Of a stretch of DNA of 44,126 nt, positions 6,585-8,868 are shown piece after piece. The notes beneath the pieces are model-generated. The model was not told the origin of the DNA, did not search any database, and worked only from the letters and a program-made list of their open reading frames with translations. Made by a program: the position numbers and the translations under genes. The stretch spans positions 1-44,126 of the forward strand of contig WTGX01000030.1 in the NCBI GenBank assembly GCA_011523385.1. Reading direction: 5' to 3'. Each line of letters opens with the position of its first letter. Within the stretch, counting starts at the first letter, position 1. Source of the stretch: Nitrospira sp. Its GTDB lineage: Bacteria; Nitrospirota; Nitrospiria; Nitrospirales; UBA8639.

Positions 6585-7124
6585 ATGCCCTCGTCTCACA
6601 ACCCTCATGTGCACGATCAGCCCCCCCCTGCCGAACACAAGGCCCGAGGACCCGCGTCCATCGAGTGCGGCGTCATTACGTGCAGCGACACGCGAACCCC
6701 GGAAACCGATAAAAGCGGACAACTCATTCGAGAGCTGCTCACGCAGGGCGGCCACCGCATCGGCGCCTATCACGTGGTGAAAGACGAACCGGTCGAAGTC
6801 CGGGAACTGGTCCGAGAGTTGGGCGAGCAGCCTGGACTCGATGCCCTGATCATCAATGGCGGCACCGGCATTTCCCGGCGCGACTCCACGTTTGAAGCCG
6901 TCGATGGCCTCCTGGAAAAGCGATTGCCGGGATTCGGGGAGCTCTTTCGCTATTTGTCCTACAAGGACATCGGCTCGCCGGCGATGCTCAGCCGAGCCAC
7001 CGCCGGCCTGTATCAGGGGATCGTGCTGTTCTCGATTCCCGGTTCGAGTGGCGCGGTCCGCCTGGCCATGGAAGCCCTCATCCTTCCCGAACTCCCGCAT
7101 ATTGTCGGAGAAATGCGGAAGTAA
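6585..7124 (+). CDS. moaB: Molybdenum cofactor biosynthesis protein MoaB/MogA type
   Basis: A 179-residue MoCF-domain protein of the MogA/MoaB family, which adenylates molybdopterin before molybdenum insertion (MogA). Some MoaB proteins have a less clear role. The motifs are present: GVITCSDTRTPETDKSG near the start of the fold, LIINGGTGISRRDSTFEAV (the conserved GGTG and D-T loop), then IPGSSGAVRLAM. The first 28 or so residues are an extension rich in His and Pro. It is preceded closely by the ferredoxin gene. No other Mo-cofactor genes are in the window. Confidence 0.88.
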   Translation: MPSSHNPHVHDQPPPAEHKARGPASIECGVITCSDTRTPETDKSGQLIRELLTQGGHRIGAYHVVKDEPVEVRELVRELGEQPGLDALIINGGTGISRRDSTFEAVDGLLEKRLPGFGELFRYLSYKDIGSPAMLSRATAGLYQGIVLFSIPGSSGAVRLAMEALILPELPHIVGEMRK

Positions 7125-7164: not shown

Positions 7165-7194
7165 TTTACACTATTGTATCTTTTGGGATACAAT
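7165..7194 (+). promoter_or_regulatory. Promoter with overlapping operator of the HigBA-type locus
   Basis: TTTACA (7165-7170) and TACAAT (7189-7194) are 18 nt apart. A perfect inverted repeat ATTGTATC-N6-GATACAAT (7173-7194) covers the spacer and the -10. That is where an autoregulating antitoxin such as HigA would bind. The expected start point, about 7 nt after the -10, coincides with the ATG at 7201, so the transcript would have little or no leader. Confidence 0.65.
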
Positions 7195-7200
7195 TAGGCA

Positions 7201-7308
7201 ATGATTGAGATTCGCCAAACCGATGTCTATGCACGATGGTTCAGGAGGCTTCGGGACAGCCAGGATCAGGACATTGAAAAGGCGCACAATCTGGCGCGAG
7301 AACTATAG
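7201..7308 (+). pseudogene. HigB/RelE-type toxin remnant with internal deletion
   Basis: A 35-codon frame. Its first 19 residues (MIEIRQTDVYARWFRRLRD) match the start and its last 16 (SQDQDIEKAHNLAREL) match the end of the roughly 95-100 residue RelE-like toxins that pair with this antitoxin family. The middle two thirds, including the catalytic strand region, are missing, and the frame is retained across the join. The gene keeps its promoter, start and position ahead of the antitoxin. It is almost certainly not an active mRNA interferase, but a short peptide could still be made. Confidence 0.8.
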
Positions 7309-7317
7309 GAGGCGGCA

Positions 7318-7614
7318 ATGGCAAAGATACAGACCCGGCCGTGGGACGCGGCGGATTACCTGGAGACCAAGGAAGACGTCGTTCTCTACCTTGAAGCGGC
7401 TTTTGAAGACGGCGACCCGGGACTGATCGCGGCTGCGTTAGGAGACGTTGCGAGGGCCAAGGGGATGACGAAGGTGGCTGCCGACGCCGGTTTGGGTAGG
7501 GAGAGCCTGTATAAGGCACTGTCACCCGGCGGCAATCCGGAGTTCGCCACCGTACTCAAGGTTATGCGAGCCTTGGGCCTCCGGCTTCACGCATCCGCTT
7601 CGACCGCTCGATAA
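7318..7614 (+). CDS. HigA-type antitoxin (addiction-module antidote, HTH)
   Basis: A 98-residue DNA-binding antitoxin of the family described as probable addiction module antidote protein. The N-terminal part includes TRPWDAADYLETKEDVVLYLEAAFEDGDPGLIAAALGDVARAKGM. The helix-turn-helix follows: TKVAADAGLGRESLYKALSPGGNPEFATVLKVMRALGL. A strong ribosome-binding site (AGGAGG) precedes the ATG by 5 nt. The toxin partner just upstream has lost its middle, so this is now an antitoxin without a full cognate toxin. It probably still represses its own promoter through the inverted repeat at 7173-7194. Confidence 0.9.
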   Translation: MAKIQTRPWDAADYLETKEDVVLYLEAAFEDGDPGLIAAALGDVARAKGMTKVAADAGLGRESLYKALSPGGNPEFATVLKVMRALGLRLHASASTAR

Positions 7615-7815: not shown

Positions 7816-8868
7816 TTAAGGCACAAGGATGATTTTTCCGAACATCTTGCGGGCGAGCATCCGTTCCTGGGCTTGGCGGGCTTCGGATAAGGGGAAGACC
7901 GAGTCCACGACCGGACGGACGGTTCCGGCTTCGATGAAGCGGCTGGCTTCCACGAGTTCGTCACGGGTACCCATGTAGGATCCCCTGATCGTCAATTGCC
8001 GGGAATAGACGTAGCGCATATCCAACGGACTCTCCGGTCCGGAGGTCGCGCCGCAGGTAACTAACCGTCCCCCGCGCGCCAACGATCGCAGGCACTGGTC
8101 CCACACGGCCTGACCGATATGCTCGATGACCACGTCCACGCCGCGGCCATCGGTGAACGTTTGGACTCGCTGGGTCACGTCCTCCCTGGTATGATTGATC
8201 ACCATATCCGCTCCGATCGCTTCGGCTTTTTCGATTTTGTCGTCGGTTCCCACCGTGCTGATCACGCGCGCTTCGAGCAGACGGGCGAGCTGGATCGCCA
8301 TGCTGCCGACGCCGCTCCCGGCTCCCATCACCAACACGGTTTCTCCGGGTCGAACGTCAGCCAGGGTTTTCACCATGTGCCAGGCCGTCACCGAGACCAG
8401 GGGATAGGCTGCGGCCTGTTCAAAGGTCAACCCGGAAGGCATCGGCAGGAGGTTTCCGGCAGGAACCTTAACGTATTCCGCATAGCCTCCGTGAACCCCG
8501 GCGCCCAGTAGATGGTACGTCGGGCAGAAATTATCCTTCCCGGCCAAGCAGGACTCGCACTGCCAGCAACTGATGCCCGGGGAAACGACAACGGGTTGTC
8601 CGATCTGATACGGCGCGTCCGTACCCTCCCCGATTTGTTCGACCACGCCACTCACGTCGCACCCGGAAATATGCGGAAGCGGGATCGTGTAATTGGGGAT
8701 CCCCTGACGGATCCAGATGTCCAGGTGATTGAGCGCGCAGGCTTTGACCCGGACGAGGACTTCCCCGGCCTTGAGAACAGGGAGCGGAACGTCTTCAAAC
8801 GTGAGCCGTTCCGGACCGCCGTGTCGATGAAAGGTGACGGCTTTCACGAACTTCTGAGAGGGAGTCAT
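7816..8868 (-). CDS. Zinc-type alcohol dehydrogenase / quinone oxidoreductase-like (MDR)
   Basis: A 350-residue medium-chain dehydrogenase/reductase. It has the GroES-like catalytic domain (residues 1-150) and a Rossmann fold with the dinucleotide loop GAGSGVGSMAIQLA. The structural-zinc cysteines are intact (CWQCESCLAGKDNFC). The residues that usually bind the catalytic zinc are not: the first ligand position is in ACALNHLD (Asn) and the GHE motif is GCD. That pattern is seen in NADPH-quinone reductase-like members carrying a structural zinc, so a reductase without catalytic zinc is plausible. Length is normal. It lies downstream of the PhzF-like gene, separated by an inverted-repeat pair, and is probably transcribed separately. 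Confidence 0.85.
   Translation of the reverse strand: MTPSQKFVKAVTFHRHGGPERLTFEDVPLPVLKAGEVLVRVKACALNHLDIWIRQGIPNYTIPLPHISGCDVSGVVEQIGEGTDAPYQIGQPVVVSPGISCWQCESCLAGKDNFCPTYHLLGAGVHGGYAEYVKVPAGNLLPMPSGLTFEQAAAYPLVSVTAWHMVKTLADVRPGETVLVMGAGSGVGSMAIQLARLLEARVISTVGTDDKIEKAEAIGADMVINHTREDVTQRVQTFTDGRGVDVVIEHIGQAVWDQCLRSLARGGRLVTCGATSGPESPLDMRYVYSRQLTIRGSYMGTRDELVEASRFIEAGTVRPVVDSVFPLSEARQAQERMLARKMFGKIILVP

Follow-up and report, generated by a model that had tools for sequence, protein, structure and literature searches.

The window, by which we mean the whole 44,126-nucleotide stretch of Nitrospira sp. DNA analyzed here, is best read as carrying a putatively autoregulated orphan antitoxin that arose through toxin-first decay and has probably been kept as immunity to related toxins. 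On this reading the locus began as a HigBA-type type II module, toxin gene first, flanked by a moaB-like gene and a zinc-dependent dehydrogenase gene, and one deletion in the lineage of the window species took 61 toxin codons. Left behind were a predicted leaderless promoter-operator, the end codons of the toxin, and an antitoxin with its own ribosome-binding site, which may protect against related toxins that plasmids or relatives bring in. The features of the locus are as follows.

7165 to 7194, plus strand: promoter, TTTACA (7165-7170), 18 nt, TACAAT (7189-7194), from a consensus scan and identity to the ssl7039 promoter.
7173 to 7194, unstranded: operator-like palindrome, ATTGTATC-TTTTGG-GATACAAT, lying over the −10, from the sequence and the family motif.
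7201 to 7308, plus strand: HigB/Gp49-type (TIGR02683) toxin remnant of 35 codons, from the open reading frame, profile matches and alignment with full toxins.
7307 to 7312, plus strand: antitoxin ribosome-binding site, AGGAGG, overlapping the toxin stop, from the sequence.
7318 to 7614, plus strand: antitoxin of 98 amino acids, TIGR02684 / PF21716, from profile matches.

A first-pass annotation of this DNA had described a toxin reduced to its two ends with the middle gone in frame, and both profile matches and alignment agree with that description. When aligned with full toxins, the remnant comprises about the first 20 and last 15 toxin codons, with the whole middle absent and the frame preserved. 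Its N-terminal part corresponds to positions 1-19 of a 92-position custom toxin profile (15.2 bits) and its C-terminal part to positions 78-92 (4.9 bits), while residues 19-34 match positions 79-94 of the TIGR02683 profile with 17.4 bits (E 0.0043). As the family cut-off is 62.85 bits, the 35-residue remnant falls outside TIGR02683 (HI1419 type, HigB/RelE superfamily), and it gave zero matches against Pfam. The orthologous toxin of a sister species (locus L004, genome G012) has 96 codons, so that 183 nt, or 61 codons, are missing in frame from the window, with the deletion point at ∼7255-7264. Since the remnant lacks 61 of the 96 codons of the sister toxin, no intact toxin adjoins the antitoxin, and the locus is not a functional type II toxin-antitoxin module. 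For the G012 toxin, the predicted fold (pLDDT 94.4) resembles those of Streptococcus pneumoniae HigB (6af4; Z 12.7, rmsd 2.1, 93 aligned), Mycobacterium tuberculosis HigB1 (7awk; Z 12.3, rmsd 2.0, 93 aligned) and RelE on the ribosome (Z 12.2, rmsd 2.1, 91 aligned), with 23-25% sequence identity to the first two. This shared fold is absent from the remnant: the lost stretch, about residues 21-81 of the model, contains the second helix together with the four strands that follow it, and the remnant therefore cannot form it.

The antitoxin had been called intact with a ribosome-binding site, and so it is. It belongs to TIGR02684 (HI1420 type; 127.5 bits, E 1.6e-37, cut-off 53.7), scores 111 bits against PF21716 (cut-off 27), and is preceded by AGGAGG at 7307-7312. 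Being intact and without an adjacent intact toxin, it is an orphan antitoxin. Searches of solved structures by sequence returned no match for the single sequences or for the toxin profile. The sole structure matched by the antitoxin profile, the designed filament 6e9z (E 3.6e-4), was taken as spurious.

Upstream of the remnant, the promoter agrees with the consensus at 10 of 12 positions, and the scanned stretch holds three promoter-like sites as compared to a mean of 0.3 in shuffles. The perfect inverted repeat reported over the −10 was confirmed and could be refined to arms of 8 bp, the palindrome at 7173-7194 including the −10 hexamer itself. The toxin start codon lies 7 nt beyond the −10, at the expected transcription start. 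Judged from the sequence, this layout, with the toxin first and a palindromic operator over the promoter, is that expected of a HigBA-type autoregulated operon. The closest characterized relative found is Ssl7039/Ssl7038 of the Synechocystis sp. PCC 6803 plasmid pSYSA, for which excerpts of the published account (PMC4963859) give a mapped transcript start at the toxin's start codon and describe purified Ssl7039 as an RNase hampered by Ssl7038. The G012 toxin is 65.6% identical to Ssl7039 and the window antitoxin 67% identical to Ssl7038, and positions 7175-7194 of the window equal TGTATCTTTTGGGATACAAT of ssl7039 at 20 of 20 nt, placed 6 nt before the ATG in both. Unlike that complete pair with its active RNase toxin, the window toxin lacks its core. 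By homology, the lost toxin would have been a ribonuclease, the antitoxin would act as its antidote, and transcription would start on the toxin's start codon; promoter spacing and the identity to the mapped ssl7039 promoter place the predicted start at 7201. The earlier proposal that the 35-codon microORF holds the transcript start thus gains support by homology, since the closest characterized relative found has an identical promoter-operator and a start mapped on the start codon. The orphan antitoxin very likely still represses its own promoter. In addition, promoter-like matches on the minus strand were seen within 7173-7229, with second hexamers ending at 7173 and 7201; these may reflect divergent transcription toward the moaB-like gene.

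Of 93 intact loci in the wider family, 76 carry the family motif GTA-N10-TAC no more than 60 nt from the start of the toxin, and in 47 of the 64 intact loci with a placeable start codon the distance from motif to start codon is 8 or 9 nt. A Shine-Dalgarno (SD) sequence precedes 6 of 91 toxins as compared to 88 of 93 antitoxins. Because the toxin's first codons would form the 5′ end of the mRNA and its last codons hold the antitoxin SD, deletions that spare antitoxin expression tend to leave both ends, and a leaderless promoter would explain why the first codons outlast the toxin.

An orphan antitoxin could also be retained as a transcription regulator of other genes, and such roles have been proposed for orphan antitoxins in passages of PMC7192599 and PMC10790755. 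While the antitoxin model has an XRE-like helix-turn-helix, most similar to HipB though short of a telling level (Z 6.7, rmsd 2.7, 69 aligned), hits to the operator pattern across the genome with up to two mismatches (33) were not above those of a reversed-pattern control (29). Only one other perfect match was found, at G000:C34:9741-9756 (G000 being the window's genome), and it lies inside a 628-amino-acid reading frame and is probably due to chance. We consider this role improbable.

The site between the moaB-like gene (6585-7124) and the dehydrogenase gene (7816-8868) was traced through 14 genomes of the genus, five of which (G012, G010, G013, G001 and G000) carry the module there. G012 and G010 have a full toxin, G013 has a full toxin with about 200 nt separating toxin and antitoxin, and G001 retains the operator and first codons with about 1 kb in place of the remaining toxin. 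In six genomes (G003, G005, G007, G008, G009 and G011) the order runs from moaB to the dehydrogenase with no module between them, and in G002, G004 and G006 no dehydrogenase match was present within the stretch fetched. The 183-nt in-frame deletion is therefore most simply derived in the window's lineage. Two features of the inserted and neighboring DNA were also observed. The ∼200-nt insertion in G013 (L230) and the ∼1-kb insertion in G001 (L221) end in similar CGTAAAAATTCT just before the antitoxin SD, a pattern that insertion of one element in each genome would produce. A hairpin-capable GTAGGTCAGGTTAGCGAAGCGTAACCTGACA repeat, possibly a small repeat element characteristic of this genus, recurs near the site in sister genomes (L007, L220 and L221).

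The first-pass annotation had named a full-length toxin in a close relative, together with a deletion confined to this assembly, as the pattern that would point to a sequencing or assembly error. That pattern was found in part, with full toxins in G012, G010 and G013 and no second genome among those examined sharing the deletion, and the genome is in 38 contigs. Nevertheless, an artefact is scarcely credible, because the remnant reads clean and in frame across the junction, one such junction is common to three other assemblies (L016, L017 and L191), and a second locus of the window's genome has probably collapsed as well. Among the three antitoxin loci of this genome, the one on C24 is intact, the window's is collapsed, and the third, on the minus strand of C3 at about 45150-45540, looks collapsed on weaker evidence. 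Antitoxins were found at 20 places in the genus, in 10 of the 14 genomes; 10 of these are intact, five core-deleted, four have lost the toxin and nearby operator, and one lies at a contig end.

If the toxin was deleted in this lineage, the question becomes why the antitoxin persists. The first-pass annotation had offered protection from a related toxin at another place as one reason, and the search of the genome for such a paralog gave no indication of this: the single TIGR02683 match, at C24:219814, has its own antitoxin and shares 44% identity, across 89 residues, with the G012 counterpart of the lost toxin. A close cognate toxin elsewhere in the window's genome was accordingly rejected as a candidate. 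Plasmids do carry related toxins, with matches in 781 of 72,556 records, and such toxins remain intact in sister species. Protection from incoming toxins thus appears to be the best remaining reason for antitoxin retention. In this respect the locus would resemble anti-addiction modules, as described in parts of PMC5906591 (citing Saavedra De Bast et al. 2008) and of the review PMC7354431, in that the resident window antitoxin could neutralize a related toxin of an incoming element.

Similar losses have recurred in other bacteria. We classified 158 antitoxin loci, which were collected by antitoxin searches, making modules without an antitoxin invisible. The toxin is intact in 93 of these and near full length with stops or frameshifts in 14; in 20 the toxin core is deleted with the operator kept alongside, in 28 the toxin and nearby operator are gone, and three (L079, L103 and L142) were left unclassified. 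One of the 20 core-deleted loci is probably a second locus of the window's genome. L095 is only a probable member of this class, as its N-terminal part scores 7.6 bits and no relative above 53% identity was found in 235 genomes, and L008 (G001) was counted as gone, though its operator survives about 1 kb upstream. Because L016, L017 and L191 share one junction and L202 and L203 share another, the 20 core-deleted loci represent 17 junctions. Starred branches of the poorly resolved antitoxin tree, for which L155 and L158 are too short, force at least nine loss events. Of the 48 deletion-type loci, 15 carry a strict operator motif no farther than 200 nt from the antitoxin, as compared to 68 of 6200 shuffled stretches. 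All 15 are core-deleted loci (15/20, the exceptions being L095, L140, L191, L202 and L203) and none are gone loci (0/28), although the core/gone split was made by eye and partly on the operator. Operator retention is not universal, as toxin and nearby operator are both gone in 28 loci. The recurrence of these losses suggests that retaining the antitoxin by itself is frequently of benefit.

The core-deleted loci also bear on the microORF, which might be functional, either by encoding a peptide or by serving as a translated leader coupled to the antitoxin. While the frame contains both toxin ends and its stop is overlapped by the antitoxin SD, only 3 of the 20 core-deleted loci have a two-ended in-frame microORF. 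The other 17 retain operator and antitoxin without one; L017, for example, has an early stop, L016 a 2-nt shift, and L007 no start codon. This does not support the first-pass suggestion that the microORF itself is retained. An in-frame junction is, moreover, to be expected from repeats that share a codon phase. In 91 intact toxin genes we counted 46 repeats of at least 8 bp common to both gene ends, 29 of them in the same phase, and synonymous shuffling gives an equal share (20.2 of 32.4), so an in-frame junction requires no selection. A functional microORF is therefore very improbable. Given the identity to the ssl7039 promoter with its mapped start, and the scarcity of such frames, the microORF is best read as the inert, leaderless 5′ end of the antitoxin mRNA rather than as a kept peptide. 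The repeat count exceeds the expectation of synonymous shuffling (32.4, sd 6.9) and of codon-order shuffling (18.9, sd 6.6) only modestly, and intragenic repeats were rejected as a strong deletion hotspot. By eye, the word shared across the junction measures 9 bp in L010, about 8 bp in L016/L017/L191, 6 bp in L196 and at most 4 bp (CAGG) in the window, with little or no shared word at the other core-deletion junctions.

The main rival to retention as immunity is a neutral lag, in which the toxin was bound to go first, since loss of the antitoxin before it would do harm, and neither antitoxin nor operator has yet decayed. A recent loss of this kind would be expected to show an unshared deletion, an open microORF, and an antitoxin close to that of its relatives, as in the window (96% identity to the G012 antitoxin), and loci at every stage of decay exist. 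Locus pairs with a common toxin-loss junction allow debris to be told from a kept gene by sequence comparison. Five sets share a loss as judged by junction or upstream sequence (L016/L017/L191, L202/L203, L147/L151/L156, L015/L025 and L031/L036); L091/L102 (dN/dS 0.09) and L202/L206 (0.03) were left out, as upstream sequence supports a shared loss poorly. Orphan antitoxins in these sets have dN/dS values of 0.04-0.20, at dS values of mostly 0.12-0.68, as compared to dN/dS values of 0.02-0.18 in paired antitoxins. Orphan antitoxins sharing one loss are thus under purifying selection, which counts against a neutral relic.

Operators and remnants behave differently in these sets. L016 and L017 differ at 0 of 20 operator sites, 22 of 114 remnant sites and 23 of 85 flanking sites, and L202 and L203 at 1 of 20, 10 of 60 and 24 of 106, respectively; pooled, operator and remnant change differ with p 0.013, a value that derives from two chosen pairs and one change in 40 sites. 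Counter to this contrast, L016 and L191 show one change in 20 operator sites and only five in 114 remnant sites, and in L191, which has the L016 junction, the −10 itself has changed. The antitoxin tree separates L017 from L016 and L191 despite their common junction, so recombination is possible, the tree being poorly resolved. In shared-junction pairs, then, the antitoxin was conserved after the loss while the toxin remnant drifted. On balance, decay of the remnant beside a stable antitoxin and a mostly stable operator speaks for retention of the antitoxin and against that of a micropeptide. The deletion in the window was not found in any other genome examined, and selection at this locus is extrapolated from the shared-loss sets. 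Retention as immunity remains our preferred reading for the window, with a neutral relic rather unlikely.

Orphan antitoxins are already a known kind of gene, counted by the thousand in sections of reports on Klebsiella (PMC7192599), E. coli (PMC10790755) and marine MAGs (PMC12654330); the last of these re-annotated 150 of 527 hypothetical orphan antitoxins as dnstrm_HI1420. Like those described there, the window antitoxin has no working neighboring toxin. The orphans in those sections were recognized from homology and gene context; junctions, retained operators and selection following a loss, which are considered here, do not feature in them. Among the papers listed by searches of the open-access literature, we recognized none on operator-retaining toxin-core deletions or on selection after toxin loss. 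The recurrence of these losses and their explanation by a leaderless promoter add moderately to the interest of the locus. As a tentative generalization, leaderless toxin-first HigBA modules may repeatedly become "operator plus antitoxin" immunity genes, the core often being excised between short in-phase repeats of the A-R-rich ends while the transcript start and the antitoxin ribosome-binding site escape and selection retains the self-limiting antitoxin as a defense against related toxins.

Several individual loci showed further peculiarities. About 110 nt before the antitoxin of L196, the first codons of the toxin remnant run without a stop and in frame into the antitoxin, giving an open frame of 148 amino acids that may represent a fusion of toxin remnant and antitoxin. 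In L091 and L102, sequence inspection revealed an apparent tRNA gene directly upstream of the orphan antitoxin, which may be read from the tRNA promoter. The orphan antitoxins of L015 and L025 lie directly behind the same larger gene, with 114 of 126 aligned upstream sites alike, possibly as part of a new transcription unit.
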